Shown here: positions 812 through 19,916 of the stretch, piece after piece
Layout: the number at the start of each line of letters is the position of its first letter
Numbering within the stretch: the stretch's first letter is position 1
Assembly (NCBI GenBank): GCA_903876885.1
Contig: CAIRBP010000013.1
Span: forward strand, 1 to 34,787
Length of the DNA stretch: 34,787 bases
Reading direction: 5' to 3'
Origin: an uncultured Burkholderiales bacterium
GTDB lineage: Bacteria > Pseudomonadota > Gammaproteobacteria > Burkholderiales > Burkholderiaceae_C
Notes under the pieces: model-generated
Seen by the model: the letters and a program-made list of their open reading frames with translations, nothing else
Databases searched by the model: none
Told to the model about the DNA's origin: nothing
Translations under genes and position numbers: made by a program

Positions 812-1699
812 ATGAACGCTGAAAACCAAGAAAATCCAACTAACCAAGCCAAATGGCAACTAAAAATCGAGAATGTTTTAGCCAAGCCCTTTTTGCAGCA
901 TGGAATAGTAGTACTTATCTTTCTAAATGCCATCTTACTTGGCATGGAAACTAGTCCTTGGATCATGAGTCAAATTGGAGAAGAATTACATATTCTTGAT
1001 CACGTTATTTTGGGTATCTTCATTTGTGAGCTGACATTATTGATGATTGCAAGAGGGTTAAATTTCTTCAAAGATCCGTGGTGTCTCTTTGACTTTATCG
1101 TTATCGCCATCGCGCTAATCCCGGCCTCCGAATCTCTCGCGGTTCTTCGTTCTCTTCGGGTGCTTCGAGTACTGCGTCTCATCAACAAAGTTGATAGCAT
1201 GCGTAAAGTAGTCAGGGGTCTATTGGGTTCTTTGGCGAGTTTGGGATCAGTTATGGGTCTTATGTTGATCGTGTTCTACGTATCTGCTGTAGTTACGACT
1301 AATTTGTTTGGCAAAGAATTCCCTGAGTTTTTTGGAAACCTAGGATCTAGCTTTTTCACTCTTTTCCAAGTTATGACACTGGAGAGTTGGTCTGACGGCA
1401 TTGCCAGACCGGTGATGGAGAAGTTCCCGAATTCTTGGATTTTCTTTGTGATCTTCATCATGATTGCCACGTTCGTAGTTGTAAATCTTTTTGTGGCTGC
1501 GATTGTTGACTCCTTTAGCGCTCATAGCGCAGCGGACAAAGAAGAGGAGAAAAGAATTCAAGACGAAGCTCAAAGACACCTTGAGGAACAAAGACTGTTA
1601 TTGCAAATAAATGAAGAATTTCACTCAATTAAAGCAGAACTTGACGAGGTCAAAGACATGATCAAGGGCATGGCTCAGGGCACTCTAATAGCTAAATAA
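812..1699 (+). CDS. One-domain voltage-gated cation channel (NaChBac/NavAb type), filter TLESWSD
   Basis: 295-residue ion transport protein (PF00520), one subunit of a presumed homotetrameric inner-membrane channel. S1 is near 30-45, S2 62-80, S3 88-104, S4 108-126 with four gating arginines at three-residue spacing (R113, R116, R119, R122), S5 about 140-165 and S6 208-235. The selectivity filter TLESWSD (189-195) keeps the TLESW core of the sodium channels NaChBac and NavAb, but ends in Asp. The C-terminal tail (about 243-288) is rich in E/K/R/L and looks like the coiled coil that tetramerises this family. No Shine-Dalgarno is visible before the ATG; no better start exists. It aligns without gaps to the protein at 13335-14210 over the first ~235 residues. 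Sodium selectivity is inferred from the filter. It may support motility, pH or osmotic responses. Confidence 0.93.
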   Translation: MNAENQENPTNQAKWQLKIENVLAKPFLQHGIVVLIFLNAILLGMETSPWIMSQIGEELHILDHVILGIFICELTLLMIARGLNFFKDPWCLFDFIVIAIALIPASESLAVLRSLRVLRVLRLINKVDSMRKVVRGLLGSLASLGSVMGLMLIVFYVSAVVTTNLFGKEFPEFFGNLGSSFFTLFQVMTLESWSDGIARPVMEKFPNSWIFFVIFIMIATFVVVNLFVAAIVDSFSAHSAADKEEEKRIQDEAQRHLEEQRLLLQINEEFHSIKAELDEVKDMIKGMAQGTLIAK

Positions 1700-1711
1700 A
1701 ATGCGAGGGTA

Positions 1712-1735
1712 CGCGCGTCTTGAATCTCACGCGCG
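1712..1735. terminator. GC-rich hairpin between convergent genes
   Basis: CGCGCGT (1712-1718), a 10-base loop, then ACGCGCG (1729-1735), between the end of the channel gene and the end of the M20 peptidase gene. On the - strand a T-rich stretch follows after about 8 bases; on the + strand none does. It may act as a terminator, best for the peptidase. Moderate to low confidence. Confidence 0.4.
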
Positions 1736-1775
1736 CAACCACATTCACACCCCAGACAACATTGAAGATGAACAA

Positions 1776-3326
1776 TTAGTTTGTTATGTAAGGTGTATTG
1801 AGTAGACCAAGCATCGTACGCATACCAGTTAAATAATTACCCATTCTTAGATTTTCATCATAAGCGTGCTGATTATTATCTGTATTTACAGTTGGAATAA
1901 TCACAAACGGCAGCCCCAGAGGGCCTACGATTTCATGGGTAGGAACTGTTGCCCCTGAGGCCCGAATAATCACCGGCTTTGCACCGCCCATATTAGCGTA
2001 GGCATTGGTTTGAGCAATTTCCACCCATCTCCTTACTGGAGTGTCTATAGGTTGGCGTGCCGCCTCAGCAGGCAATCCTTCTAAAATTTTAAGCAACCTT
2101 GGGAATTGTGCTCTCTCGGCGTCAGAGGGATCGTGATCGATTATGTGAAAGCCTTGTTTTTCAATATGCTTTCTTAATAATTCGGTTAAATACTGCGCAT
2201 TAGCCTCTGTTGTTGTTCGAATATCTATATCAGCAACGGCCTCCTTAGGGATAATATTTGCAGCCTCTTTTCCGACTCCCCCAGCAGATAAGCCCCTGAT
2301 GTTTAATGAGGGATACTGCAACGATCTTTGATAATTTGAAGCGACTTCATCAGCAGTTGCAATTCCTACGCGTTTTTTTAATGCAATTTCATCATCGCCA
2401 ACCGCATCGAGAACTTTTAAATCTTCAACACTCAATTTATTTCTTGAGTTATATCCTGGGATTATGATTTGTCCACGCTCATTTTTCATGCTGGATAAAA
2501 GCCGAGCTAAGTTAAAAGCTGGATTGGGAACATAGTTACCGTAGTGTCCACTATGCAAAGGAGCTTTAGGGCCATATACCGTTAGATTAAGTGTCTGAAC
2601 CCCTCTGTTTCCAAAAATAGCAGTTGGTCGTCCACTTGGGTGACTTGCCATATCGAAAATAACTAATGCATCAGCCTTAAGGAAATCTCTATTTTGTTTA
2701 ACCGCTTCTGGAATACCAGGCGAATTCACTTCTTCCTCACTATCCAGAATTACTTTAATATTGATCGCGGGATTAATGTTCGTAGATTTCATCAGATCTA
2801 AGGACGCCAAGAACATCATAATGGGTCCTTTATCATCTGATGCTGATCTAGCAAATACTCTAAGCTCAGGGTCGAAACCAGTATTCATTAGCTCCTGCAT
2901 TGAAACGATTTGCCATCTCCCGTCCTTGTCTTTTTTCTTCAAAACTGGTTGCCAAGGATCCGACTGCCCCCACTGAGCGGGAATAACGGGTTGCCCATCA
3001 AAATGAATATAAAAGAGGATGGTTTTCTTTGCCGGATCAAAAGCGTACTCAGCCATGACGAGAGGCTTGCCGTTGTTTGCAAACTGTTTAGTGGTGAAGC
3101 CTCTCTTTTGGAACAGACTCTCCAGTTGATTCGCATTCAACTTAATTCCCTCAACATTAGCAATCGAGTCATTAGGTATGGTCAGAAGGTTTAAATATTC
3201 AGGGAAACTATTTACAGCAGCAGTACGAATAGACTGCTCGTTAAGACCAACGGGTAGTTCTGCAAAGGCTGGGGACAGCAAACACAATTGAAAAAAAGTA
3301 ATTAATAATTTTTTTGAAATATTCAT
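1776..3326 (-). CDS. Secreted M20-family metallopeptidase/deacylase
   Basis: 516 residues with a Sec signal peptide (about 1-22, Ala-Phe-Ala before Glu), so it acts in the periplasm. M20 metal-binding motifs are present in order: His-x-Asp in FYIHFDGQPV (about 108-110), Asp in SASDDKG (about 164), the catalytic and metal Glu pair in DSEEEV (195-199), Asp in the IFDMASHPSG region, and a C-terminal His in NNQHAYDEN (about 487). The family cleaves peptides or N-acyl/carbamoyl amino acids using two zinc ions. The length fits the M20 group whose lid domain is inserted between metal ligands. The substrate cannot be read from the sequence. It is followed on the same strand by no close partner; the gene upstream (3455-4255) is 128 bases away. 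A peptide or amino-acid scavenging role is plausible. Confidence 0.88.
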   Translation of the reverse strand: MNISKKLLITFFQLCLLSPAFAELPVGLNEQSIRTAAVNSFPEYLNLLTIPNDSIANVEGIKLNANQLESLFQKRGFTTKQFANNGKPLVMAEYAFDPAKKTILFYIHFDGQPVIPAQWGQSDPWQPVLKKKDKDGRWQIVSMQELMNTGFDPELRVFARSASDDKGPIMMFLASLDLMKSTNINPAINIKVILDSEEEVNSPGIPEAVKQNRDFLKADALVIFDMASHPSGRPTAIFGNRGVQTLNLTVYGPKAPLHSGHYGNYVPNPAFNLARLLSSMKNERGQIIIPGYNSRNKLSVEDLKVLDAVGDDEIALKKRVGIATADEVASNYQRSLQYPSLNIRGLSAGGVGKEAANIIPKEAVADIDIRTTTEANAQYLTELLRKHIEKQGFHIIDHDPSDAERAQFPRLLKILEGLPAEAARQPIDTPVRRWVEIAQTNAYANMGGAKPVIIRASGATVPTHEIVGPLGLPFVIIPTVNTDNNQHAYDENLRMGNYLTGMRTMLGLLNTPYITN

Positions 3327-3454
3327 ACTTGAATCCGCGTAACTATTTTTTAAATAAGTGAGTGAAAATTTAACACGAAACAGATTTTTCTTTTACTTAG
3401 AACCAAAAGATAAGTTTACTTAATAGGAGCTAAAAAAGAAGATTGATCGAAAAA

Positions 3455-4255
3455 TTATTCATCATCTTTAACGCCTCTTAATCCGGCTCGTTCGATCATT
3501 TTCTTAAGTTGTCCGTTTCTTCTAAGTTCATCTATGAAGTTATTAACCACCAGCATGTCAACCGCTCTTGCTTTGGGAATTCCTAGCGCAATATGTTCAT
3601 AACCTAAAACATCATCTAAAACCTGCGCCTGCGCCCATTGATCGGCCATCTCAAAGAGGATGCCTTTATTTGTAGAAAAAGCGTCCAACTCTCCATTTTT
3701 TAGCATCCCAATTGCGCCAGCAATCGAGGTCGTTTGAACAATCGTGGCCAATTTAAGTATTTTGGGTAGCTCCATCTCTGATGAACTCCCCACACTTACC
3801 CCCACTCGGACCCCAGTTCGATCTATATCAACTGCAGATCGAATAGTCCCTTTTGAACTCACCAAATAACCGCGTTCAATTCGAACAACTGGTTTTGAGA
3901 ATTGGAGTGATTGGGCTCTAACGGGTGTTGCGTTTGTAAAGATAAGATCGACACTCCGGTCCTTGGCCGCATTAAACACATCAGCATTTTTGGGGTAAAC
4001 AATTGGGGCGTACTTAAGGCGCTGAGCTTTAGAAAATTCTAAACCTAACTCATAACCCAAGCCAACACGCTCATTAGTGCTAGGGTTGATGACGAGTGAG
4101 CTAGGGGATCCAGAATAAAGCCCCATCCTTAATTCACCGCTCGGAGCAAAATCTAGGGGCTCAGCATTTAATTCAAACCCTAAGAGGATGAAAATTAAGC
4201 CTAAACTCAACATGAGGAGTTTGCGCAAACTCATTCTCTCAATCCAAATATTCAT
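3455..4255 (-). CDS. Periplasmic solute-binding protein, SBP_bac_3-like
   Basis: 266 residues. An N-terminal hydrophobic segment (about 12-30, ending LNAEP) reads as a signal peptide. The body fits family-3 binding proteins: ELRMGLYSG opening strand, YELGLEFSKA helix, DLIFTNATPVRAQ ('D-x-x-x-x-x-x-T-x-x-R' motif), and the ELDAFSTNK hinge. The ATG start has an AGGAG Shine-Dalgarno 8 bases upstream, which favours it over the internal Met8. There are no permease or ATPase genes beside it, so it is an orphan receptor: it may feed a distant ABC transporter, or sense a ligand for a signalling protein. A 24-base perfect palindrome lies upstream at 4296-4319. Confidence 0.82.
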   Translation of the reverse strand: MNIWIERMSLRKLLMLSLGLIFILLGFELNAEPLDFAPSGELRMGLYSGSPSSLVINPSTNERVGLGYELGLEFSKAQRLKYAPIVYPKNADVFNAAKDRSVDLIFTNATPVRAQSLQFSKPVVRIERGYLVSSKGTIRSAVDIDRTGVRVGVSVGSSSEMELPKILKLATIVQTTSIAGAIGMLKNGELDAFSTNKGILFEMADQWAQAQVLDDVLGYEHIALGIPKARAVDMLVVNNFIDELRRNGQLKKMIERAGLRGVKDDE

Positions 4256-4295
4256 TTACTGCACTCCTTCCCTTGGCTTTCTAAAATACATAACG

Positions 4296-4319
4296 CAATG
4301 GGGCCCTAGGGCCCCATTG
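4296..4319. terminator. Perfect 24-base GC-rich palindrome
   Basis: Arms CAATGGGGCC (4296-4305) and GGCCCCATTG (4310-4319) with the central CTAG also self-complementary. It lies between the end of the dehydrogenase (4342) and the start of the solute-binding gene (4255) on the same strand. It could be a factor-independent terminator for the dehydrogenase, but neither side has a T-tract directly after the stem, so an mRNA-processing hairpin or a protein-binding palindrome is also possible. Confidence 0.55.
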
Positions 4320-4341
4320 GGATAAATAGGTTATACGGTAT

Positions 4342-5781
4342 TCAAATATCACAAACTATAGAAACAGACTTGGTATTCAAGTACGCCTCTAATGCCTCTG
4401 ATCCGCCTTCTGATCCGTAACCAGAATCCTTCACACCGCCGAAAGGCATCTCAGGCCAGGCAACTGCGGGTTGATTCATCCACAACATGCCAACTTGAAG
4501 TTGTTGAGCTAGTAGGTGGGCATTTTTTAAAGACTTCGTGAAGGCATAACTAGCTAATCCAAATGGCAGCCTATTGGATTCAGCAATTGCCTCATCCATA
4601 GTATTGAAAGTACGAATAGCCGCCATAGGTCCAAAAGGCTCATCATTAAAAACTTTTGCATCAAGAGCCACGTCGGAGAGAATTGTTGGTGCAAAGAAGT
4701 TACCCGTTGTTCCAATACGCTCTCCCCCTGCTGACACGGTGGCGCCCTTGCTGACGGCGTCTTTCGTAAATTCAGCCATCGCTGTTAGGCGGCGAGGATT
4801 TGCAAGTGGCCCCATGGTTGTTCCGTCCTCAAGCCCATTGCCGACTTTCAAGTTACCTGCTTGTTTTACCATTGCTTCAATAAACGACTTTTTCAGACTT
4901 GAATGAACTAAAAAACGGGTGGGAGAAATACAGACCTGCCCCGCATTTCGGAATTTTGCAGCGCCTGCGGACCTTGCTGCTAGCTCTACATCAGCATCTT
5001 CGCAGACTATCACAGGGGCGTGGCCACCTAACTCCATAGTCGCACGTTTCATATGTTGGCCGGCCATAGCAGCCAATTGTTTACCTACTGGAGTTGAACC
5101 TGTAAAGGTAATTTTTCGGATGATTGGATGGGGAATTAAATAGCTTGATATCTCAGCCGGATCTCCGTAAACCAAACCTATCACTCCAGCAGGAACGCCT
5201 GCATCCATAAACGCCTTTAGGAGACCTGCAGGTGAAGCTGGAGTCTCCTCTGGGGCTTTAACAATAATAGAGCATCCTGTAGCTAAAGCTGCACTCAGCT
5301 TACGAACAACTTGGTTAATTGGGAAGTTCCAAGGCGTAAAAGCTGCTACGGGACCCACTGGGTCTTTGAGGACCATTTGTTGAGCAGCTAAATTTCGCGC
5401 GGGAACTATTCTTCCGTAAACGCGTTTGCCCTCTTCTGCAAACCATTCAATAATATCGCTCGCCATGCCAATTTCAGCTTTTGACTCTGCCAGGGGTTTA
5501 CCTTGTTCTTGAGTCATCAAGGCAGCAATTTCCGCTGCACGCTCCCTTAGGAGACTAGCTGCCTGACGCATGATCTTGCAACGCTCAAAAGCGGGCGTCT
5601 TACGCCAAGCTTCAAATCCCTTTTGAGCCGCGATCAATGCGCGGTCTAAATCTTCCTTCCCTGCAAATGCAACTCGTCCAATTTCTTGGGATGTAGCAGG
5701 ATTGAGCACAGGCAGAGTTTTACCGCTTTTTGCATCACACCATTGGCCATCAATTAACAACTGAGTATTAGCATAGGTCAT
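4342..5781 (-). CDS. gabD: NAD(P)-dependent succinate-semialdehyde dehydrogenase family aldehyde dehydrogenase
   Basis: 479 residues, the full length of the aldehyde dehydrogenase superfamily. Visible motifs: FTPWNFP with the catalytic Asn (N152), cofactor motif TFTGSTPVG (225-233), general base Glu in MELGGHAP (E250), the nucleophile in [12 protein letters not shown] (C284), and NDEPFGP near the C-terminus. The family oxidises succinate semialdehyde to succinate. The close relative 2-oxoglutarate semialdehyde dehydrogenase, used in sugar-acid breakdown, cannot be excluded by eye. The ATG has only a weak purine-rich site. It is divergent from the AbrB-family permease at 6067 with a 285-base shared upstream region, so the two may be co-regulated. 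Confidence 0.87.
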
Positions 5782-5986
5782 TCTTGGGATCTTTCAAAGT
5801 TCATAAAGGAGAAAAAAAGAACCTTTTAAAAAAGGTCGTTGCAAAGTTTACCACCCTACCCAAAAATTGTCTGTAAAGGGCAACTACAACGATGATTTGG
5901 AATTTTTGGGTTCAAAATCAATCTAAACACTGAAATAGTGAAGCTAGCGTATTGATGCACATACTAAGCTTCAAATTCACGCGCAT

Positions 5987-5998
5987 AGGGAATTCCCT
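5987..5998. promoter_or_regulatory. 12-base palindrome in the gabD/abrB-family divergent region
   Basis: AGGGAATTCCCT is a perfect palindrome 69 bases before the AbrB-family start. It is a candidate operator in a divergent intergenic region of 285 bases (5782-6066). The same region holds a short A/T inverted repeat at 5821-5836 (ACCTTT/AAAGGT) in the gabD leader. A 12-base palindrome could arise by chance. Confidence 0.25.
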
Positions 5999-6066
5999 GA
6001 GTCAAGCACGGAAAAGTACACTACTTGGGTGTCACGGACTATGCAAGTCGTCTTTATTAAATTTTC

Positions 6067-7173
6067 ATGGCCCCCAACTCTTCATTTTCTACACAGTCAG
6101 TCAAAGCGTTTGATCTTTCAAAGTTACATCACTCAGTGCAGTGGATCTCACTTTTAATCATTACTTTACTCACTACTGCTTTTTGTGAATGGCTCTCATT
6201 GCCGGCAGCTCTCTTACTGGGTCCAATGTTTGGTGGCATCATTACTGAAACCCTGGGTGCTAAAGTTCGTTTGCCCAGGGTTTCGATGTACGTTTCTCAG
6301 GCAGTGATTGGTTGCCTTATTGCAAGCTCTATGAATCAAGACATATTAAACGTTTTTCTTGCGCAGTGGCCAATCCTAATCAGCGCTGTTTCAATGACTT
6401 TGATTGTAAGTATTGCCTTGGGTTGGGGAATTGGTAAGCTAGGCATACTCCCAGGAACAACAGCAATTTGGGGCTTACTCCCTGGGGCTGCCTCAGTGAT
6501 GGTCATGATGGCAGAGGATTACGGAGCAGATGCAAGGCTAGTGGCCTTCATGCAATACTTACGCGTATTATTGGTCACTCTTACAGCCTCGTTAGTTGCA
6601 AGGTTTTGGGTGCATTTACCAAGTACGGCAATACATGCCATTGTGTGGTTTGCCCCCATTCATGCTCAAGCCTTTGCGATTAGCCTTGGTGTAATTTGTA
6701 TTAGCTTATTAGCTATTTTTGCACCTTGGATCTCAGGTGGCGTTCTGATCCTGTCAATGTCACTTGGTGCTTATATTCAACTTCAAGGCTTTGCAAAACT
6801 TGAATTACCAATGTGGCTGTTAGCATTTGCATTTGCACTAGTCGGATGGAATATAGGACTCAGGTTTACTCGAGAAGTACTATTGGCCGCGGCTAAAGCG
6901 CTCCCACAAACGGTTCTCTCAATTGCCTTGTTAATTGTTTTTTGCATGGGTCTAGCTTTTGTACTGGTTAACGCTTTGGATATAGACCCTTTGAGTGCTT
7001 ATTTAGGAACGAGTCCCGGCGGGGTCGATTCTGCCGCCATTATTGCTGCCTCTACAAAGGTAAATATTGCCTTCGTGATGACATTACAAATCATGCGATT
7101 TCTTATTACACTCTTAATGGGGCCCACACTCTCACGCTATGTGGCCAATCAAGTTACAAAGAAAATCAATTAA
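6067..7173 (+). CDS. AbrB-family inner-membrane protein (putative permease)
   Basis: 368 residues and strongly hydrophobic, with about ten membrane segments. It shows the duplicated AbrB architecture (PF05145, once labelled ammonia monooxygenase): repeat 1 about 30-185 with LLLGPMFGG, LPGTTAIWGLLPGAASVMV and QYLRVLLV; repeat 2 about 205-355 with the matching GTSPGGVDSAAII and LQIMRFLITLL. The Pro-Gly motif near the middle of each half supports an inverted-repeat transporter fold. The substrate is unknown; family members often sit beside organic-acid genes. The next gene, a beta-hydroxyacid dehydrogenase, starts 22 bases after the stop (ATG at 7196), suggesting an operon. The start is the first ATG after the divergent region; no strong ribosome site is visible. 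Confidence 0.85.
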   Translation: MAPNSSFSTQSVKAFDLSKLHHSVQWISLLIITLLTTAFCEWLSLPAALLLGPMFGGIITETLGAKVRLPRVSMYVSQAVIGCLIASSMNQDILNVFLAQWPILISAVSMTLIVSIALGWGIGKLGILPGTTAIWGLLPGAASVMVMMAEDYGADARLVAFMQYLRVLLVTLTASLVARFWVHLPSTAIHAIVWFAPIHAQAFAISLGVICISLLAIFAPWISGGVLILSMSLGAYIQLQGFAKLELPMWLLAFAFALVGWNIGLRFTREVLLAAAKALPQTVLSIALLIVFCMGLAFVLVNALDIDPLSAYLGTSPGGVDSAAIIAASTKVNIAFVMTLQIMRFLITLLMGPTLSRYVANQVTKKIN

Positions 7174-7195
7174 TAATTTAATTAAAGCTCTGTTA

Positions 7196-8155
7196 ATGAA
7201 TAAAAAAACTATTAAACCAACTCAACCGCTTTTAGCTTCAACTGCAACTAACAATTTACCAAAGATTGGCATAGTTGGTTTAGGAATAATGGGCGGTGTT
7301 ATGGCAGAAACCTTGATTCAAAGAGGCTATAAGGTGGTGGGTTATGACATAGATCCAGTTGCAATGAAACGTTTGAAAAAGGCTGGAGGCAAGGCTGTAT
7401 TAAGCATAAAAGAGATTAGCATTGATTGCAGCGTTGTCATTGTGTCGCTTGCAACTTCAAGAGCCCTAAGCGATGTGGTCTCAGAGCTATCATCGGCACT
7501 AAAAGGAACTAAAAAATCATGTTTAGTTCTGGAGACTAGCACGCTTCCCTTAGCAGACAAAAGCTCAGCCAACGCTGCACTTACCAAAGCAGGTGCTTTG
7601 GTAATGGACTGTCCGATCAGCGGAACCGCTGCGAGGATGAAAGACCGTGCTTGGACTATCTATATCAGTGGACCCAAGAAAGCGCTCGCTACGGCAGAAC
7701 AAATTTTTAAAGTATTTACGGATAACGTCCCCTATGTCGGGAAGTTCGGCAGTGGAACAAAGATGAAGTATGCAGCCAATCATCTTGTTGCAATTTATAA
7801 CGTTGCGTACGCAGAGGTCGTAACGTTTGCCAGAAAAATGGATCTAGATCCAGCAGAAATGCTAAAGCTCTTTGGAAACTCTCCCGTACTTGGAACCGGT
7901 GTGATGAGACTTCGCATGCCATTTATGATTGAGCGCAACTATTCACCTCCAACCATGAAAATTCAAGTTTGGCAAAAAGACATGCAAGTTATAGGTGATA
8001 TGGCCAAGTCTGTCGATTGCCCTCTCCCGTTATTTACTGCTTGTGCGCCTATTTACACTTCTGCGATGGGGCAAGGATTGGCACTCGAGGATACTGCGTC
8101 AACGGCAGAGGTCTTAGGTTCAATGGCAGGAATTAAACCAAAGAAAAAAAAGTAG
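7196..8155 (+). CDS. NAD(P)-dependent beta-hydroxyacid dehydrogenase (3-hydroxyisobutyrate/tartronate-semialdehyde reductase family)
   Basis: 319 residues from the ATG at 7196. An upstream in-frame ATG at 7139 would overlap the permease by 35 bases and add 19 residues of no family character, so I chose 7196. The Rossmann motif GLGIMGGVM (about 28-36) is followed by an acidic residue (GYDID) that favours NAD. The substrate-binding motif DCPISGTAARM and the catalytic Lys in GTKMKYAANH (K191) are present; the usual Asn after the Lys is shifted by one position, as in a subgroup of the family. Likely reactions are reversible oxidation of a 3-hydroxyacid or reduction of tartronate semialdehyde to glycerate. 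The Lys-rich C-terminus (KPKKKK) is notable. Context with AbrB, Bug and glucarate dehydratase genes suggests organic-acid metabolism. Confidence 0.86.
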   Translation: MNKKTIKPTQPLLASTATNNLPKIGIVGLGIMGGVMAETLIQRGYKVVGYDIDPVAMKRLKKAGGKAVLSIKEISIDCSVVIVSLATSRALSDVVSELSSALKGTKKSCLVLETSTLPLADKSSANAALTKAGALVMDCPISGTAARMKDRAWTIYISGPKKALATAEQIFKVFTDNVPYVGKFGSGTKMKYAANHLVAIYNVAYAEVVTFARKMDLDPAEMLKLFGNSPVLGTGVMRLRMPFMIERNYSPPTMKIQVWQKDMQVIGDMAKSVDCPLPLFTACAPIYTSAMGQGLALEDTASTAEVLGSMAGIKPKKKK

Positions 8156-8224
8156 CGCAACCATATCACGACAACCTCTTTTTCGGTAATAGAAAACTAG
8201 ACTACACCGAACTCATTGTAAATT

Positions 8225-9301
8225 TTAGTCTGCTTTTATATTTGCAGACTTTACTACTGCGCCCCATTTGAGAATCTCTTTTTTTACATAAAGGCTAAAC
8301 TCTTCGGGTGAGTCTCCAACAGGCAAGGCACCTTCTTTACTCAAACGTTCGCCGACCTCTTTGAGTTTTAGAACCTCTATGACCTCTTTATTAATCTTAT
8401 GGACGAGCTCTTTAGGCATATTTGCTGGGCCAAATAATCCGACCCATGAGTACGCCTCATAGCCAGGTAAACCACTCTCTGAGATGGTCGGTGTTTCTGG
8501 AAGCGTTGGGATACGTTTAGCATTACCTATTGCCAAGGCATTTAATTGACCTGAGTGAACGTAAGGCAAGACGGGTGGAATACTACTAAAGAGCATCTGT
8601 ACCTGTCCCGAGAGTAAGTCCGTAAGGGCTGGTCCCTGGCCTTTATAGGGAACATGTACTAATTTAACATCGGCCATAGAGTTAAAAAGCTCACCCGCTA
8701 AATGTCCCGAGTTTCCAGCCCCGGGTGAGCAAAAGTACAGTTGGCCAGGCTTGGTTTTGGCTAAAGCAATTAGGTCTTTAATATTTTTAGAGGGAAGACT
8801 GGGATGAGTAACGAGTAATAGAGGCAGGCTAACTAAGTTAGTAATAGAGCTGAGGTCTTTGATTGGGTCATAGGGTAATTTTTCATAAAGACTTGGGTTA
8901 ACCGCAATCGGCCCTGCAGATGCAACGGCAAGCGTATAACCGTCGGCGGGAGAGGCTATGAGCGCTTGTAGCCCTACGATACCATTTGCACCGGCCTTAT
9001 TATCAATGACGATAGGTTGCCCTAGGCGCTCCGATAGTTTTTGGGCGATTACTCTTGCCACAACATCATTGCCACCACCTGCCGGAAAAGGCACAATTAA
9101 GCGAATTGGCTTACTGGGATATGTAGTTAAGTTTTGAGTCTGGGCAAAGGCGGGACTCGGAGCACAAACAAAAACCAAGAAATAAAAAATACAACTGAGT
9201 ATTGTACGGATTTGTAAAGTGACAAATTTAAACAATGCGGGTGAACGGTTGGACGTTTTCCTTATGGAAAACAAGTTATTTTTACCATTTATATTGATCA
9301 T
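8225..9301 (-). CDS. Bug-family (tripartite tricarboxylate transporter) periplasmic receptor
   Basis: 358 residues. A long N-terminus (about 1-53) ends in a signal peptide with cleavage after AFA. The Bug/TctC signature follows: YPSKPIRLIVPFPAGGGNDVVAR, RLGQPIVIDNKAGANG, GYTLAVASAGPIAVNPSLY, HVPYKGQGPALTDLLSGQVQM (each seen as a run in the sequence; quoted in part). Bug proteins bind carboxylates, amides or amino acids and deliver them to a TctA/TctB permease, or act as sensors. No TctA or TctB gene is in this window. The positively charged ~25-residue leader before the hydrophobic core is long; a later non-ATG start is possible. Divergent from a MarR-like gene at 9502 across 200 bases, which suggests local control. 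Confidence 0.9.
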   Translation of the reverse strand: MININGKNNLFSIRKTSNRSPALFKFVTLQIRTILSCIFYFLVFVCAPSPAFAQTQNLTTYPSKPIRLIVPFPAGGGNDVVARVIAQKLSERLGQPIVIDNKAGANGIVGLQALIASPADGYTLAVASAGPIAVNPSLYEKLPYDPIKDLSSITNLVSLPLLLVTHPSLPSKNIKDLIALAKTKPGQLYFCSPGAGNSGHLAGELFNSMADVKLVHVPYKGQGPALTDLLSGQVQMLFSSIPPVLPYVHSGQLNALAIGNAKRIPTLPETPTISESGLPGYEAYSWVGLFGPANMPKELVHKINKEVIEVLKLKEVGERLSKEGALPVGDSPEEFSLYVKKEILKWGAVVKSANIKAD

Positions 9302-12772: not shown

Positions 12773-12898
12773 AGAGACTCCAATTAAGGTTAAAACTTGA
12801 AGACGTTAAGGGATAAAAGTCTTATTGCACTGAACGTTGATAGAAATTAAACTCAACACTAGCCTCAACTACATGCAGGGCTGGCCGATGTATTCCAA

Positions 12899-12936
12899 AG
12901 TATAGCGAATATAAGTCAAATAGCACGATCGTTCTA
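12899..12936 (-). promoter_or_regulatory. Candidate promoter and TetR-type operator of the acyl-CoA dehydrogenase
   Basis: Palindrome TAGCACGATCGTTCTA at 12921-12936, imperfect only at one symmetrical pair. On the - strand a -10-like TATACT (12904-12899) lies 17 bases after CGTGCT, which would be the -35 hexamer and is inside the palindrome. A repressor bound here would block the promoter. ACG-n-n-CGT cores are typical of TetR-family regulators of acyl-CoA genes (family knowledge). The site is about 150 bases before the start codon. Confidence 0.5.
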
Positions 12937-13278
12937 AACTGTGTCGGACAATTAGTCGAATTTCGATTCGATTTATAAGCACTCTTCAAGGTATAAAAAA
13001 GACGGTAGAAACAAACCTGTTGAGATGTTGTTCGCGGTCTATAGTTATATTTCAGGAATACAACAAGACATACGATTTTCAAGAAATATGGCAAGCGCTG
13101 AAATAGCAAACCAACATATTCAAAAGCTATTGGATCTTCACAAGCCGAACTGACTAGCCTAATGCATTAAAAGTTAGTACATTTTAATTAGACTTTTTAA
13201 TTTAATTCCCAGATTTAAATCGGCAATTGACCCCTAAAATACGAGAATATCCTAATAAATTAATGTTTTGATCCAGGT

Positions 13279-13299
13279 TGTTGCACTTCAGTTGCAACA
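13279..13299 (+). promoter_or_regulatory. Inverted repeat in the leader of the second channel gene
   Basis: TGTTGCA (13279-13285), 7-base loop, TGCAACA (13293-13299). It ends 35 bases before the ATG. It may be an mRNA hairpin or an operator half-site pair. The other two channel genes lack it. Confidence 0.35.
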
Positions 13300-13334
13300 C
13301 AGACCAAACAACTGAATATAAGCTTAATTAAGAA

Positions 13335-14210
13335 ATGACTACTGTCGATAACGCAACCGATACCGCTACTGCTAAGTGGAAAATTTCTATTGAAAATTTT
13401 CTAGCACAACCGATGATTCAACATGGAATCGTTGCACTCATATTTCTGAATGCTGCGCTATTAGGCATGGAGACTAGTCCTTGGATTATGGGAGAAATAG
13501 GCGAAATTCTTCACATACTAGATCACGCAATTCTGTATATTTTTATTTTAGAGCTCTTGCTTCTTATGCTTGCTCGGGGACTTCACTTCTTTAAAGATCC
13601 TTGGTGTATTTTTGACTTTATAGTTATCGCTATCGCTATCATTCCCGCCTCTGAATCGCTTGCCGTACTCAGATCGTTGCGTGTACTGCGAGTGCTCAGA
13701 CTCATCAACAAAGTTGAGAGTATGAAAAAAGTAGTTCGAGGACTACTCGGATCTTTAGCAAGCCTTGGCTCAGTAATGGGACTGCTATTAGTTGTTTTTT
13801 ACGTAGCCTCTGTTGTGAGTACCAACCTCTTTGGAAAAGAATTTCCTGATTATTTCGGAAATTTAGGAGCTAGCCTATTTACGCTATTTCAAATCATGAC
13901 ATTAGAGAATTGGGCTGATGGTATAGCACGCCCAATTATGGAGAAATTTCCAATGGCATGGATATTCTTTTTGGTCTACATCATGCTTTCTACGTTCGTT
14001 GTGATTAATCTCTTTGTGGCAGCAATCGTTGATGCATTTAGCTCCATTAGCCACGCTGATGCTGCAGAAAAACAAGGCATCGAAGATGAAAAATTACGCA
14101 AATTAAAAGAACAAAGAATATTCGCGCAACTCGCAGATGAGTTTCAAGTAATCAAAACTGAAGTCCACCAACTCAAAGGACTGCTTGCGTCTTTACCCCC
14201 AAGACGATAG
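13335..14210 (+). CDS. One-domain voltage-gated cation channel, filter TLENWAD
   Basis: 291 residues, gap-free alignment with the protein at 812-1699 through S6, including the same S4 arginines (R113, R116, R119, R122) and the same residue numbers for the filter (189-195). The filter reads TLENWAD: the pore Glu is kept, Ser becomes Asn, and the last position is Asp as in calcium-type filters. S1-S6 as in the first paralogue. The C-terminal tail (about 240-285, with EKQGIEDEKLRKLKEQR) looks like a coiled coil but differs from the first paralogue. The ATG is preceded by AAGAA only. The filter change suggests altered sodium/calcium preference, but this is inference. Convergent with cysB, with 6 bases between the stop codons' outer ends. 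Confidence 0.93.
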   Translation: MTTVDNATDTATAKWKISIENFLAQPMIQHGIVALIFLNAALLGMETSPWIMGEIGEILHILDHAILYIFILELLLLMLARGLHFFKDPWCIFDFIVIAIAIIPASESLAVLRSLRVLRVLRLINKVESMKKVVRGLLGSLASLGSVMGLLLVVFYVASVVSTNLFGKEFPDYFGNLGASLFTLFQIMTLENWADGIARPIMEKFPMAWIFFLVYIMLSTFVVINLFVAAIVDAFSSISHADAAEKQGIEDEKLRKLKEQRIFAQLADEFQVIKTEVHQLKGLLASLPPRR

Positions 14211-14216
14211 ATAAAC

Positions 14217-15161
14217 TCAAAGCTCAGCTTGCTCAACTGGTTTCAAAGCGGCTTTAATCTCTAATTCAGTTAGGTTAGCCGAGCATAATTCAATAAATTT
14301 ATATGTAAAGCCACGAAGATAGTGGCCTCGCCTGAGAGCAATCCTAGTCGTGTTTGTTGCAAATAGATGATCGCTCTTCAAAATCCGAAGTTGAGTATCA
14401 CGCTCTTTTTGATAAGCCATTGAAGCGATTATCCCTATACCTATACCTAAACCTAACTCAACATAGGTTTTGATAACGTCCGCATCAAGTGCAGACATAA
14501 CGATATCAGGGGTAATATTAGCGTTAGAGAAAGTTTCATCAATTAATTTTCTACCCGTAAACCCTTCATGATAAGTTATAACTGGATATTCAGCCAAATC
14601 TTCAATATTCAAATTTTTGATTTTCTCAAGAGGATGTCCTTTGGGAAATATAACAGTATGATGCCAGGAGTAGAAGGGGAAACTTACTAGCTCAGGTATC
14701 TGCGACAAAGATTCAGTTGCAATTGCTAGATCAGCCTCACCATTTAAAAGTAACTCAGATATTTCCTTTGGACTGCCCTGATGTAGCGCAAGGTGAACCT
14801 TAGGAAATTCCTTTTTAAAAGAGCTGACAATTTGGGGTAAAACATACCGAGCCTGGGTATGCGTTGTAGCTACTGTCAATTGCCCCTTATCACTTTGACT
14901 AAATTGCTCAGCAAGTAATTTAATATTTTTAGTATCAATTAACATTCTCTCAACTATTGTCAAGAGCTCCTTGCCTGGGTCCGTTAATCCTAAAAGTCGC
15001 TTCCCTTTTCTAAGAAAGAGCTCGATCCCCAACTCATCTTCAAGGTCTTTAATGTGCTTGCTGACACCAGATTGCGAGGTGAAAAGCGCGTTTCCAACAT
15101 CAGTTAAGTTGTAATTACACTTTACAGTTTCACGGATAATTCGCAGTTGCTGAAAATTCAT
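14217..15161 (-). CDS. cysB: CysB-type LysR-family regulator of sulfur assimilation
   Basis: 314 residues. Winged helix-turn-helix at 1-60 with LTDVGNALFTSQSGVSKHIK, the recognition region typical of CysB/Cbl. The effector domain (about 92-290) has the CysB hallmark ATTHTQARYVLP, the Thr residues that bind sulfate or O-acetylserine derivatives. Closing segment TNTTRIALRRGHYLRGFTYKFIE also matches CysB. It activates sulfate uptake and reduction and cysteine synthesis genes when N-acetylserine accumulates. It sits 49 bases downstream of the cysteine synthase gene on the same strand, so the two may be co-transcribed and jointly controlled. Confidence 0.92.
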   Translation of the reverse strand: MNFQQLRIIRETVKCNYNLTDVGNALFTSQSGVSKHIKDLEDELGIELFLRKGKRLLGLTDPGKELLTIVERMLIDTKNIKLLAEQFSQSDKGQLTVATTHTQARYVLPQIVSSFKKEFPKVHLALHQGSPKEISELLLNGEADLAIATESLSQIPELVSFPFYSWHHTVIFPKGHPLEKIKNLNIEDLAEYPVITYHEGFTGRKLIDETFSNANITPDIVMSALDADVIKTYVELGLGIGIGIIASMAYQKERDTQLRILKSDHLFATNTTRIALRRGHYLRGFTYKFIELCSANLTELEIKAALKPVEQAEL

Positions 15162-15210
15162 TTTATTTTTATTTTAGAACTTTAAATTTTGGATATTGGG
15201 GCATCTATGT

Positions 15211-16185
15211 TCAAGAAATTGCAAGTCCTTGTTCGTTAAACAATCCCTCAAATAATGCTGAACTGAGATATCGCTCTGCAAGATCTGGGAGCACAACGAC
15301 AATTGTCTTACCAGCATATTCTGGTAACTTTGCCAAACGAATCGCAACAGCAGCTGCAGCACCACAGGAAATACCTACCAAAATCCCCTCCTCCCTAGCA
15401 AGCCTTTGAGCAACCTCTATCGCTTCCTCATTGGTTACTTGCTCTACTCGATCAATCAAGCTTAGATCAAGATTATCAGGAATAAAGCCTGCCCCAATGC
15501 CTTGGATTTTGTGAGGACCAGGTTTTAATTCCTCGCCTTTTCTTCTTTGGGTGATGACTGGGCTGGAGGTGGGCTCAACTGCAACTGATTCAATTTTTTT
15601 GTTCTTGGTGTTTTTTATATAGCGAGAAATACCTGTAATAGTTCCCCCTGTCCCAACACCCGCAACTATTACGTCAATGGCGCCATTGGTGTCATTCCAA
15701 ATTTCTGGTCCAGTTGTTTTCTCATGGATGGCGGGATTGGAAGGATTGCTGAATTGTTGCAAAAGTACGTATTTAGAATCAGATTTTGAGATTTCTAAGG
15801 CCTTTGCAATAGCGCCGTTCATGCCTTTGGCACCTTCAGTTAAGATAAGTTTAGCACCTAGTATTGTGAGGAGCTTTCGCCGCTCTATGCTCATTGTCTC
15901 TGGCATAGTCAGAGTCAAAGGTATCCCTTTTGCGGCGGCTACAAATGCGAGTGCTATTCCAGTATTACCACTTGTAGGCTCAATAAGCTCCTTTCCAGGA
16001 GGCAATAAACCGCGCTCTAAAGCATCATGGATCATAGCTGCTCCAATGCGGCACTTAACGGAATATGCTGGATTTCTTCCCTCAATTTTTGCAAGTACTG
16101 TTGCACCGGCATTACCCGTAATCCTATTAAGCTTAACTAAAGGGGTATTGCCGATTGAGAGTGAGTTATCTGCGTAAAGTGTCAT
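15211..16185 (-). CDS. cysK: Cysteine synthase (O-acetylserine sulfhydrylase)
   Basis: 324 residues. PLP enzyme that makes cysteine from O-acetylserine and sulfide. The PLP Lys is in [10 protein letters not shown] (K44), the substrate loop is [11 protein letters not shown] (about 66-76), and the phosphate loop is VGTGGTITG (about 176-184). The length and the [11 protein letters not shown] segment fit CysK; CysM is about 300 residues, but the two are hard to separate by eye. It lies just upstream of cysB on the same strand. A 51-codon ORF precedes it by 55 bases. Confidence 0.92.
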
Positions 16186-16240
16186 GATCTAAGCTCGTAT
16201 AGGGTTCTTGATTTAGGATTGATTAAGTGAACAACAGTTT

Positions 16241-16396
16241 TTAAGCTGCTAATTCCGCCATTTTGACAGTCGTCATGATAAAGAGGATCTGTCGCTTTAT
16301 TTTATTTCTTTCCTGAGTATTTTCAAGAGGTAATAAATCGTGTTGCTTGAGTAAATCTGTAATGATTGGGTTGTAGTGCTTTCTGATTTTTGACAT
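16241..16396 (-). CDS. Small protein of 51 residues upstream of cysK
   Basis: Complete ORF, ATG at 16396 and TAA at 16241, with a GGAG Shine-Dalgarno 6 bases upstream. The sequence begins MSKIRKHYNPIITDLLK and ends KMAELAA. It is basic, soluble-looking and helical (two predicted amphipathic helices, QHDLLPLENTQERNKIKRQ and the FIMTTVKMAEL part). It has no Cys, so it is not an obvious cysteine-attenuator leader peptide. Same strand as cysK with 55 bases between, so it may head the cysK-cysB transcript. I do not recognise the family. Ribosome site and composition support it being real. Confidence 0.6.
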   Translation of the reverse strand: MSKIRKHYNPIITDLLKQHDLLPLENTQERNKIKRQILFIMTTVKMAELAA

Positions 16397-16539
16397 AACT
16401 AACTCCGCCGAATTTGGTTTATGTCTTAATCTTAATTTAAAAGAGCTGAAATCAAACCAATTATTTCTAATAACAATATGCAGTAAACAGCTAAGAAAGA
16501 TAAAGATTATGTATTACCGCAGCCCCCTTTAAAACTCCA

Positions 16540-16734
16540 TCAAATTGTCTTTATGTCATTTCCTTTCAGGAGATGGGGACAAAAATCGCTCAGATTAAAG
16601 TATTTTGCACTTTTCTTGAGAAACAGCGCTAATACCTCAGGCCGATGAGTCAACTCGACTTTTAGACTTTCATCATTGTTTGAAGCGCTCGCACAATCCC
16701 AAAAAACGTCGAACTTGGTTTTCAAATTTAGCAT
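16540..16734 (-). CDS. Possible small protein of 64 residues, unknown
   Basis: ATG at 16734 preceded by a G6 run (AGGGGGG) 3-5 bases away; TGA at 16540. The protein starts MLNLKTKFDVFWDCAS and has a helical, charged middle (ELTHRPEVLALFLKKSAKYF). An in-frame TTG at 16764 is an alternative start. It follows gudD by 79 bases on the same strand. No recognised family and no coding support beyond the ORF and ribosome-like site. It could be chance. Confidence 0.3.
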   Translation of the reverse strand: MLNLKTKFDVFWDCASASNNDESLKVELTHRPEVLALFLKKSAKYFNLSDFCPHLLKGNDIKTI

Positions 16735-16813
16735 AATCCCCCCTAAAAGTGCTTTGATTTTCAATCCAAATAGGGGTTATATCTAATAAGAAAAATTTAT
16801 ATAGATATTATTT

Positions 16814-18148
16814 TTAACGGACCATGCAAGGTCGCTTGTTGTCAAATTTCCAATTCGGTATTAGATATTGCATAGCAACTGAATCATCCCTAGCTCCAAG
16901 ACCGTGTTTTAAGTAGAGCTGGTGAGCCGCTTCAACAGCTTGCATGTCTAACTCAACTCCTAAGCCAGGTTTTTGTGGAACTTGCACATGCCCATTTATT
17001 ATTTTCAAAGGATCCCTGGTCAAGCCTTGTCCGTCCTGCCAAATCCAGTGAGTATCAATTGCCGTTACTTTGCCTGGTGCTGCAGCAGCAACCTGAGTGA
17101 ACATTGCAAGAGAAACGTCAAAGTGATTATTGGAGTGCGAGCCCCAGGTTAACCCCCAGTCACGACAGGTTTGAGCAACGCGAACCGATCCTGCCATGGT
17201 CCAAAAATGAGGATCTGCAAGTGGAATATCAACGCTTTGAAGAGACAATGAATGGGTTAGTTGGCGCCAATCTGTTGCCACCATATTAGTAGCGGTAGGC
17301 AAGCCTGTTTCACGTCTAAATTCAGCCATGACCTCCCTACCGCTAAAACCCTCCTCCGCGCCGCAGGGGTCTTCAGCGTAAGCAACAACTCCGTGCATAT
17401 CCCTCATAAGTCTAACGGCGTCCTTAAGCAACCACCCTCCATTAGGATCTAATGTTACGCGAGCGGCAGGAAACCTTTCATGAAGGGCCTGGACTGCCTC
17501 AATTTCTGCTTCGCCGCTTAGGACCCCCCCCTTTAATTTGAAATCATTGAATCCGTATTTATCCCTTGCGGCTTCAGCTGTCCTTACGATGGCCTGGGGA
17601 GTCAATGCAACCTCATTTCTGAGGCGAAACCACTCGTTATCAGCACTTGCCTCGACACGGTAAGGGAGATTTGTTTTTGCTTTATCCCCAATATAGAACA
17701 AATATCCAAGCATCTCTACAGAGGAGCGTTGCTGCCCCTCCCCGAGTAAAGCGGCAATAGGCAAATTGAGAAACTGCCCCAACAAATCCAACATGGCAGA
17801 TTCCACAGCAGTTACTGCGTGTATGGTTGTTCTTAAATCAAAGGTTTGCAAACCTCGGCCTGAGGCGTCACGATCGGCAAATTGAGTTCGTATTTGTGTA
17901 AGTACTGACTGAACATTTGCGATACTTTGACCTATCACAATATCGCTTGCATCTTCAATGGTTTTTTGGATCTTCTCTCCTCCCGGTACCTCCCCTATGC
18001 CGGTACGGCCAGAATTGTCTGTTAATACGATTAAGTTCCTGGTGAAGAATGGACCGTGAGCACCTGATAGGTTAAGGAGCATGCTGTCATGTCCAGCAAT
18101 AGGTATTACTTTAAGCGATTTAATTATTGGCGATAAAGAAGTACCCAT
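16814..18148 (-). CDS. gudD: D-glucarate dehydratase
   Basis: 444 residues, the usual length. Enolase-superfamily enzyme that dehydrates D-glucarate (and L-idarate) to 5-keto-4-deoxy-D-glucarate. The N-terminal cap shows [19 protein letters not shown], close to known GudD. Catalytic residues: the Lys pair in FKLKGG (K204, K206), metal ligands D234 and N236 in LDPNGG, E259 in YAEDPCG, N288 in ATNMVATDW, and the His base H338 in [12 protein letters not shown]8 tract on the coding strand (17524-17531) encodes part of the KLKGGV motif. AGGA precedes the ATG by 9 bases. It is not in a tight operon (BPL_N gene is 167 bases upstream), but with the aldolase at 20014-20817 it would complete the route to pyruvate and tartronate semialdehyde. 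Confidence 0.93.
17524..17531. repeat. C8/G8 homopolymer inside gudD
   Basis: Eight C on the + strand (G8 on the coding strand), encoding Gly-Gly right after the catalytic KxK. Any slip truncates the enzyme at its active site. Confidence 0.75.
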
Positions 18149-18182
18149 GTAAAAATATCCTATAAGAAAGTTTTGATTTTAA

Positions 18183-18205
18183 CTCTCAACATCCAACTTT
18201 GAGAG
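18183..18205 (-). promoter_or_regulatory. Inverted repeat upstream of gudD
   Basis: CTCTCAA (18183-18189), 9 bases, TTGAGAG (18199-18205), 35 bases before the gudD start. It may be an operator or a leader hairpin. The spacing of 16 bases between arm centres would suit a dimeric regulator. Confidence 0.35.
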
Positions 18206-18315
18206 AGTACGGAATTTACGCTAAAAACCACTTTCGTCAACATCTGTGTTGAACTACTTATGCATTCAATGTAATTAAAAAACAAAAATATATTTGAATT
18301 TTATACAACTAACAA

Positions 18316-18993
18316 TTAAAACAAACTCAATTGTCGTTCGTTAATTAAGAAGTCTGCAATAAACGCATTTAACAAATCGTGATGCTCACCCCCGTGCCAA
18401 TGAGGTTTCATATACTTCTTTGTATACCAATTAAATTCACTTTCTAAATGGCAACCTATTAATCCTATTGAGCCCTGAACGATAGCCATAGGATCTCCGT
18501 TAGCATAGCTAGCAACTACCTCAAACTCTCCACCGACAAACGTTGGTCCATCATAAAAATACATACGTTTTTGTTGTCCGCGCCAAACAACAGGAACAGT
18601 TGTGCCGTAAGATGACCTTACATCAGCTCGATTACGCTTGATATATTGAACAACTCGGGTGCCCTTTAAAAAGTCAAAATAATAGTGATCTGCCCAATAA
18701 GCTCCCATACAAATCCCTAAGAACTTACCCCCTCTACTCATAAATTTCTTAATATCTTCCAAGTTAAGTTTCATGACTTGTTTGAATGCACTTGCATCTC
18801 CGTCACCACCAGGAAAGACAACCAAGTCTACAGAGTCAAAAAAATCCTCTGCAACTTTATATTTGGTCCAAACTTTGATCACATAGTTCGAAGACAACGA
18901 CCTTATAACCCCATTCACAGAATCAGTTGAACAGGTCGGGTGATGCAAAAATACAGCAATTATCCTCTTAGGCTCTTGTAGATCTGTACTCAT
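18316..18993 (-). CDS. BPL_N-domain (class I glutamine amidotransferase-like) protein
   Basis: 225 residues. Fold markers of class I amidotransferase-like proteins: LVVFPGGDGDASAF (about 57-70), nucleophile elbow GKFLGICMGAYWA with Cys95, and the late His motif IGCHLESEFNW. These match the biotin-protein ligase N-terminal domain family (PF09825), which has no known reaction and occurs alone or fused to biotin ligase; here it is alone. Upstream neighbour is the third channel (113 bases apart), downstream is gudD. Nothing links it firmly to either. It might act on a small amide or a nucleotide; unproven. Confidence 0.75.
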   Translation of the reverse strand: MSTDLQEPKRIIAVFLHHPTCSTDSVNGVIRSLSSNYVIKVWTKYKVAEDFFDSVDLVVFPGGDGDASAFKQVMKLNLEDIKKFMSRGGKFLGICMGAYWADHYYFDFLKGTRVVQYIKRNRADVRSSYGTTVPVVWRGQQKRMYFYDGPTFVGGEFEVVASYANGDPMAIVQGSIGLIGCHLESEFNWYTKKYMKPHWHGGEHHDLLNAFIADFLINERQLSLF

Positions 18994-19106
18994 TAATCAA
19001 GCCTTGTTTAAATCTTGATTTATAAATATCTTTGGCAATACAGCATTTTCAAATCAAGTGAATTTGTAGCTTTATTTTATATATTCTCCAAAGAGGATAA
19101 ATGTGC

Positions 19107-19916
19107 TTAAGAGTTGATTTTTTGAGTCAATTGCCCAATCAAATCTTGCTGCTTAATAATAAGGTTTTTTAATTCCTTAAGTTCTAATTTAACCTCATCT
19201 AACTCGCTAGCAGATTTATCATTTTGGTTACTAGCTGACAACGAATCAACAATTACTGCGATAAAAAGATTAACTACAACAAAGGTTGCGCAAAGAATAA
19301 AGAATAAGAAAAATACCCAAGCATAGGGGAATTTTTCCATAACAGGTCTTGCGATATCCCCGGCCCACCCCTCAAGAGTCATAACTTGAAATAGCGTAAA
19401 AAGACTGTGCTCGAGATCACCAAACCAATCCGGGAATGCCTCTCCAAAAATATTCGTAACAACGACTGAGGAGACATAAAAGACGACCAGTAAGAGTCCA
19501 AGCACTGAACCCAGGCTAGAGAGGGAGTTAAGCAACCCCCTGACAACTTTCCTCATACTCGCAACTTTATTAATCAGCCTAAGTACTCGAAGAACTCGCA
19601 AAGAGCGAAGAACCGATAAGGAATCGGAAGCTGGTACAAAGGAGATCGCAATAACAATAAAATCAAAAATACACCAGGGATCTTTGAAAAAATTGAAACC
19701 TCTTGCAAATATCATGAGCAACAATTCAATGACAAAAATGCCTAGAATGCCGTGATCTAGTAAATGGATAAGTTCACCCGACTGTCCCATAAGCTCATGA
19801 CGGGTCTCCAGCCCAAGCAACACCGCGTTAATTACGATAAGAACAATCATCGCATGTTGAAAAATGGGGTGATGTGTTAGCCGGTAGGCCGAATGCCTTA
19901 AAGAGTGTATGTTCAT
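19107..19916 (-). CDS. One-domain voltage-gated cation channel, filter TLEGWAG
   Basis: 269 residues, third paralogue, with shorter N-terminus. S4 arginines R104, R107, R110, R113 are intact. The filter is TLEGWAG (180-186): the pore Glu remains, the next residue is Gly, and the last position is Gly instead of Asp. As I recall, the calcium channel CavMr of Meiothermus ruber also has Gly after the Glu, but ends in Asp. The C-terminal tail (about 235-268, ELDEVKLELKELKNLIIK...) is a clear heptad-like coiled coil. No Shine-Dalgarno. It is 97 bases downstream of the aldolase gene on the same strand, so it could be read through from the catabolic operon or have its own promoter (CCCTAAA motif at 19935-19941). 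Confidence 0.92.
   Translation of the reverse strand: MNIHSLRHSAYRLTHHPIFQHAMIVLIVINAVLLGLETRHELMGQSGELIHLLDHGILGIFVIELLLMIFARGFNFFKDPWCIFDFIVIAISFVPASDSLSVLRSLRVLRVLRLINKVASMRKVVRGLLNSLSSLGSVLGLLLVVFYVSSVVVTNIFGEAFPDWFGDLEHSLFTLFQVMTLEGWAGDIARPVMEKFPYAWVFFLFFILCATFVVVNLFIAVIVDSLSASNQNDKSASELDEVKLELKELKNLIIKQQDLIGQLTQKINS

Follow-up and report, generated by a model that had tools for sequence, protein, structure and literature searches.

Why would a freshwater bacterium keep three closely related voltage-gated channel genes within 19 kb, each with a selectivity filter of its own, and which ions would they pass? The question is raised by a contig of an uncultured Burkholderiales bacterium (GCA_903876885.1, CAIRBP010000013.1), whose 34,787 nt are called here the window. 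The host is a freshwater member of the genus Limnohabitans (Comamonadaceae), and its assembly amounts to 2.2 Mb in 116 contigs (68% complete). We termed the genes A, B and C in the order of their position, and numbered the seven filter residues 1 to 7 and the residue that follows them 8, so that Ser4 stands for a serine at the fourth place. By analogy with published channels, A, B and C are on balance probably paralogous NavAb-like voltage-gated channels, of which A and B would conduct mainly Na+ while C would be Ca2+-permeable or weakly selective.

Analysis of the open reading frames (ORFs) bore out a preliminary description of this DNA, which had placed three one-domain voltage-gated channels here: all three products match Ion_trans (PF00520; one domain, six transmembrane segments, 6TM), with E-values of 1.9e-43 (A), 5.1e-45 (B) and 1.7e-44 (C). 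C lies on the minus strand, a point on which that description was silent; the minus strand is open over the whole of C and the plus strand there is full of stops. Scanning the source genome with PF00520 gave 10 matches in 9 ORFs, namely A, B, C, five others above the cut-off and a weak one below it. The description was also right that S1-S6 and the spacing of the S4 arginines are shared, since S1-S6 identity is 82% for A-B and 71% for both A-C and B-C, and the S4 segment, VLRSLRVLRVLRLINK, is identical in all three; its RxxRxxRxxR..K pattern is present in 67 of the 69 sequences extracted from the genus. Every filter retains T1, E3 and W5 (T-x-E-x-W). Ser4, which is usual but not defining, is found in A only, and Met7, equally usual and not defining, in none. 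The filters had been read correctly as TLESWSD, TLENWAD and TLEGWAG, but their variation had been confined to three filter positions, and position 8 differs as well (Gly in A, Gly in B, Asp in C). The description thereby missed that the acid of C is not lost but displaced one place outward, to position 8 (TLEGWAG-D), in 5/5 C orthologues.

We then compared the three proteins with known systems. The best one-domain matches in the PDB are entries titled 'Ion transport protein', such as 5hvx and 3rvy, which we take to be NavMs and NavAb; as whole chains, four-domain Cav3 entries outscore them. Like the canonical bacterial sodium channels (BacNavs; NavMs, NavAb, NaChBac), A, B and C have one 6TM domain, four S4 arginines, a TxExW filter and a filter-to-S6 length of 29, a length seen in 68/68 sequences of the genus and 77/80 other canonical ones. 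Unlike them, the three lack Met7, A and B carry Asp7, B has Asn4, C has Gly4-Gly7-Asp8, and three paralogues lie within 19 kb. C alone shares TLEGW with CavMr and the ancestor-like BacNavs (AnclNavs), Gly4 being the Ca2+ determinant of CavMr (PMC7041947). However, C groups with TLESWSM channels, far from ten AnclNav-like sequences (a label based on filter and P2 helix) that are set apart by a branch of length 3.48 in a tree from which CavMr itself is absent; these have a filter-to-S6 length of 28, one residue less than C, and C bears its acid at 8, not 7. An orthology of C with AnclNavs or CavMr was rejected on tree position and filter-to-S6 length. In addition, the loop after the filter is short in A, B and C, which lack the extended L6 loop with a disulfide reported for CavMr (PMC10120453). 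C resembles the NavAb S178G/M181A mutants ('LivAb', PMC12919392) in the change of Ser4 to Gly and the loss of Met7, and differs from these laboratory proteins in being natural and in having Ala6, Gly7 and Asp8. A and B share an acid at position 7 with CavAb and CaChBac but lack Asp4, and none of the three has the TLDDWSD filter, the sole Asp standing at 7 in A and B and at 8 in C; the Ca2+-selective designs TLDDWSD, TLEDWSD and TLEDWAD all have Asp4 (PMC7041947, PMC10120453).

Copy number was counted within the genus and beyond it. A profile of A, B and C (E <= 1e-25, all candidates scored) matched 47 of 84 genus genomes, and the 69 sequences extracted come singly from 31 genomes, in pairs from 10 and in threes from 6 (the only sequence of G053 is fragmentary, and G092 has a second, short fragment that was not included). 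In a sample of the order, 41 of 399 genomes matched, and besides the source genome 39 had one copy and 1 had two; in a sample of the class (E <= 1e-20), 99 of 369 matched, 87 with one copy and 11 with two besides the source genome; in a phylum sample (E <= 1e-50), 118 of 398 matched and only the source genome had three. In the samples of the order and the class, no genome of another genus had three copies, and the 11 listed genomes that belong to other genera of the family gave no match. For the order, class and phylum samples, no more than six first-look candidates were scored per genome, and the counts beyond the genus may be too low; with that proviso, the view that bacteria usually carry one such channel agrees with 39/40 genomes of the order and 87/98 of the class.

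Filters proved diverse within the genus. The 68 readable sequences (the fragment L096, which lacks the filter, was left out of filter counts and trees) show 11 filter types, with Ser (45), Gly (21) or Asn (2) at position 4 and Asp (40), Gln (12), Glu (9), Gly (5), Ala (1) or Asn (1) at position 7. Met7 occurs in 0/68, versus 72 of 81 canonical sequences outside the genus; Ser4 is likewise found in 72 of those 81, whose named part consists of the best 80 of 583 candidates and is no survey of filter shares. From the 43 among 62 named sequences unlike the genus, the first tree included only part, 12 of the more distant ones. One record titled Limnohabitans (L181) has TLESWSM and groups with a Hydrogenophaga sequence outside the genus, so that either its title is loose or its lineage differs. 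Another record, L144 (CALPPP020000001.1), is a metagenome bin under the title Rickettsia typhi that has a channel of the Limnohabitans type, and its title looks wrong. Two odd filters, TGDGWSD and TLDGWSD, belong to L083 (G042) and L095 (G003), both on long branches. Genomes with several copies have at least two different filters in 13 of 16 cases, the remaining three (G061, G066, G067) having two copies with the same filter. On the tree, TLEGWAG is present in 5/5 C sequences and confined to that clade (TLEGWSQ is confined to another), and TLESWSD is present in 7/7 A sequences, while the B clade holds four filters (TLESWAD, TLENWAD, TLESWSA, TLESWSN).

The history of the genes was examined in a tree of 72 sequences built without the filter columns and without L096 and the long-branched L095 and L083 pair of sequences. 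B forms one clade (99/100) that branches within A-type genes, and C one clade (100/100) outside a group with A, B and TLESWSE genes (99/95), while just 2% of bootstrap trees have a branch that separates A from the rest; in the trees, all three are nested among TLESWSM sequences, apart from the AnclNav-like ones. Genomes with B also have A (7/7), and those with C have A and B (5/5). The order A-SBP-ALDH-AbrB-MarR-Bug-ACAD-B-LysR-CysM-enolase-BPL_N-C is found on a single contig in G059 and G078, with inserted genes (M20 peptidase, HIBADH, another Bug) in the window, and in part in G018 and G060; in L135 (= G075:C87), no C was found in the interval from the enolase gene to the HpcH gene. We assigned the names CysM, ALDH, ACAD, Bug, HIBADH, SBP and HpcH from the ORFs ourselves. 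The three channels are thus paralogues that arose within the genus, and other species keep them at the same loci; B came from an A-like gene, and C is an older branch. Of the earlier proposal, duplication within the lineage with divergence of the filters is supported, divergence of ion selectivity being a prediction. B is the most diverged between species (62-72% identity for most pairs, 89% for G000-G018) compared with A (86-95%) and C (84-89%); the B of the window is 64-72% identical to five orthologues and 89% to that of G018. In the close pair G059-G078, identity is 98-99% for A, B and C alike and dN/dS (w) is 0.015, 0.029 and 0.033, respectively, the ratio being usable here alone, as dS of the other pairs exceeded 1.8 or could not be computed. 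Misassembly and pseudogenes were rejected, since the same three-gene order in other genomes and the low w make misassembly and decay unlikely. Nor is the case unique: family f255 (G872, G908, G929) and G1011, from a phylum lineage apart from Limnohabitans, have two adjacent channel genes with filters TTEGWP-T/S and TM/SEGWP-D (records L322, L323, L324 and L325 for G908, G929, G872 and G1011), which indicates that duplication with differing filters recurs.

What A, B and C may conduct can be approached from published channels. In CavMr, Gly4 determines Ca2+ selectivity and Val6 is needed, whereas Asp7 is not (D7M stays Ca2+-selective), and canonical BacNavs are reported not to combine Gly4 with a polar or acidic residue at position 7 (PMC7041947). 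In a review of one-domain channels, a beacon glycine goes with Ca2+ selectivity and a neutral non-glycine residue with Na+ permeability (PMC10120453). In NavAb, M181A raises PCa/PNa up to 0.36, and S178G with M181A to 0.47 (PMC12919392). From these results we infer that A and B pass mainly Na+ with some divalent leak and that C is Ca2+-permeable. Duplication inside Limnohabitans would have yielded the three genes, kept at fixed loci, and each product would form a homotetramer opening on depolarisation. A (Ser4, Asp7) and B (Asn4, Asp7) would be mainly Na+-permeable and, because Met7 is gone, leakier to divalents than TLESWSM channels. C (Gly4, Gly7, Asp8) would have a widened filter mouth with the carboxylate ring one residue further out, and might be Ca2+-permeable, weakly selective or Ca2+-preferring; a true Ca2+ preference is possible if Asp8 serves as an outer carboxylate ring. 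The cell would gain depolarisation-triggered Na+ entry and, separately, divalent entry.

The Gly4 of C may be coupled to its acid. Within the genus, an acid at position 8 (acid8) is present in 17/21 Gly4 sequences (C 5/5, TLEGWSQ 12/12) and in 0/47 with Ser4 or Asn4, the Gly4 sequences without it being three of G042 and one of G003. A single Gly4 origin for C and the TLEGWSQ clade, a grouping picked after seeing a first tree, was rejected (p-AU 0.00087), and Gly4 was therefore gained more than once. We enlarged the set with selected, not all, sequences from the class and phylum samples; the large tree dropped 44 of 300 sequences (L096, those below 180 aa and AnclNav-like ones picked by their P2-helix pattern), and 17 gapped sequences, 14 of them Gly4, were left out of the Gly4-acid8 table. 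The 239 ungapped canonical sequences comprise 27 with Gly4 and acid8, 7 with Gly4 without acid8, 1 with another residue and acid8, and 204 with neither. Independent pairs supported the association by 6.0:0 of 10 (median p 0.031), while the control of Gly4 against an acid at position 7 gave a median p of 0.63; loss of Met7 tends to accompany Gly4 (4.7 pairs, median p 0.06). The filter type of C would thus have been reached several times by canonical bacterial channels and may pass calcium. The pair was not mentioned in the available parts of the literature searched (on BacNav paralogues, gene duplication and NavAb Gly182), nor were Limnohabitans voltage-gated channels or a Gly4 and acid8 route to Ca2+ conduction, and the string TLESWSD was not found in the literature searched.

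Several results weigh against Ca2+ permeation by C and against distinct roles for the three channels. The independent-pairs test on a 126-sequence tree gave 4:0 (p 0.125, not significant); in the enlarged set, which includes the sequences from which the idea came, p ranges from 0.0156 to 0.125. Acid8 is missing from 7 of the 34 ungapped Gly4 sequences and from 4 of the 14 gapped ones (in the other 10 the aligned residue is acidic). The Gly4-acid8 association is therefore suggestive, not strong. NavAb S178G (TLEGWSM) prefers Li+ over Na+ and still excludes Ca2+ (PMC12919392), so that Gly4 does not necessarily entail Ca2+ permeation in canonical channels, and C has Ala6 and lacks the Val6 that CavMr needs (PMC7041947). 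In the genus, filter positions 4, 6 and 7 changed 6, 4 and 7 times and the average column 7.05 times, which speaks against a strong claim of selection on the filter. The coiled coils are read from heptad patterns only, and no recorded current of A, B or C was found in the literature searched.

The alternative that survives best, possible though doubtful, is that C is a second native type of bacterial Ca2+ channel reached by convergence, Gly4 and a carboxylate at 8 mimicking the Gly4 of CavMr, a channel from a different branch of the family, with its nearby Asp7. The coupling of Gly4 and acid8 in independent lineages and the published role of Gly4 (PMC7041947, PMC10120453) favour it, as does the filter-to-S6 length of 28 in 10/10 AnclNav-like sequences; as these are one residue shorter, their acid at 7 may match position 8 here. 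However, NavAb S178G with M181A attains only the modest PCa/PNa given above, Val6 is missing from C and CavMr itself stands outside the alignment. The wider claim that canonical channels have come by convergence to native Ca2+ conduction through Gly4 with a carboxylate at 8, and that Limnohabitans keeps one such channel beside Na+-type sisters, seems to us a little less likely still.

Drift of the filter without functional change, with A, B and C all passing Na+ at similar selectivity and substitutions at 4, 6, 7 and 8 tolerated, is about as improbable as that wider claim. Accelerated evolution of the filter is unsupported, as the rate of change at positions 4, 6 and 7 does not exceed that of the average column; positions 1 and 5 show zero changes, so the frame of the filter is rigid and its variable sites are ordinary in rate. 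Drift would also fit the retained Ca2+ exclusion of NavAb S178G (PMC12919392), the three genomes with two same-filter copies and the B filter that differs between species at one locus. It accounts less well for the constancy of all eight residues in 5/5 C orthologues, for the recurrence of Gly4 together with acid8, including 12/12 TLEGWSQ sequences, and for the absence of Met7 from the genus.

The preliminary description had also raised heterotetramers. Heptad patterns are found at the C-terminus of each protein, the coiled coil of C being shorter, and the C-terminal regions are 36% (A-B), 26% (A-C) and 23% (B-C) identical, which, set against 71-82% in S1-S6, if anything favours separate homotetramers. 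Moreover, homotetramers should work in the 31 of 47 channel-bearing genus genomes (some incomplete) with a single sequence, and A, B and C lie ~5-12 kb apart with other genes between them. Mixed tetramers with asymmetric filters, as in CatSper, are thus very unlikely despite the similarity of S1-S6; separate homotetramers would be the simpler reading, with A-B mixing possible given that their C-terminal cores are alike in length and pattern.

The coordinates of the channels, their neighbours and related loci are collected in the table. The BPL_N-domain protein beside C is a possible partner of C; in G059 the LysR gene beside B is present only as two short pieces. Two other genes of the window are also worth recording. 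An MreB of 243 aa (25023-25754, minus strand) sits between a response regulator gene and a histidine kinase gene and is seemingly ~100 residues short mid-protein, the frames of relatives having ~346-359 aa. A flagellin of 891 aa (29959-32634, minus strand) has Pfam N- and C-terminal domains and a long middle without Pfam assignment.

Table. Position of the channel genes, their filters, neighbouring genes and related loci (filter coordinates of A, B and C were derived by hand).
Feature	Position	Strand	Basis or remark
Channel A, one-domain voltage-gated, 295 aa, filter TLESWSD-G	812..1699	+	ORF and PF00520
A filter with position 8, T-L-E-S-W-S-D-G, residues 189-196	1376..1399	+	from T189/E191/W193
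Channel B, one-domain voltage-gated, 291 aa, filter TLENWAD-G	13335..14210	+	ORF and PF00520
B filter with position 8, T-L-E-N-W-A-D-G	13899..13922	+	
LysR regulator and CysM-like gene adjoining B, B-locus flanks	14217..16185	-	also beside B in relatives
BPL_N-domain protein directly downstream of C, same strand	18316..18993	-	adjacency to C kept in G059, G078, G018
Channel C, one-domain voltage-gated, 269 aa, filter TLEGWAG-D, C-terminus shorter	19107..19916	-	ORF and PF00520
C filter with position 8, T-L-E-G-W-A-G-D	19356..19379	-	
Two-sensor K+ channels	L099:1004-2686, L099:7585-9240, L100:3200-4936	-	also L101, L102
Two-sensor K+ channel of the source genome	L005:1-1476		cut at contig start
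Na+-type/two-sensor K+ neighbour loci	L083:2052-5157		also L059, L066, L067, L091, L093, L057, L023, L085

The genus also has K+ channels of ~530-580 aa in which an extra S1-S4 voltage sensor precedes a 6TM channel with the filter SVGYGD (SIGYGD in one). In an alignment of 19 sequences, basic residues are kept in both S4 segments (R159, R162, R165, R168, K171 and R311, R314, R317, R320, K323 are invariant), and by our count, with all candidates scored, 74 of 84 genus genomes have a K+ channel match that starts no later than position 36 and ends no earlier than position 438 of 551. In a sample of 300 genomes of the order (at most four candidates scored per genome), only G298 had a comparable channel, besides the contig-cut copy of the source genome. 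No bacterial K+ channel with two voltage sensors was met in the available parts of the literature searched; in eukaryotic tandem Kv channels, a complete 6TM unit is repeated (PMC7576140), giving two. Of the 9 frames of Na+-type channels in one Limnohabitans clade, 8 abut or overlap a frame of a two-sensor K+ channel on the same strand (measured as stop-to-stop gaps), and the ninth (G092) lies at the end of its contig; in G042, a single K+ gene stands between two channels with the filter TGDGWSD. These adjoining frames look like Na+/K+ channel operons. No such K+ channel neighbour was found for A, B or C.

If the convergent route to Ca2+ conduction were real, C and its Na+-type sisters would, together with the K+ channels of the genus, many of them two-sensor, make up a set of voltage-gated Na+, Ca2+ and K+ channels in one small bacterial genome. 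A, B and C represent a natural experiment in the change of a Na+ filter, since one genome holds close paralogues with differences at positions 4, 6, 7 and 8, and sister species supply many natural filter variants. Should C pass Ca2+, the origin of Ca2+ selectivity would become testable through a few single-residue swaps between natural sisters.

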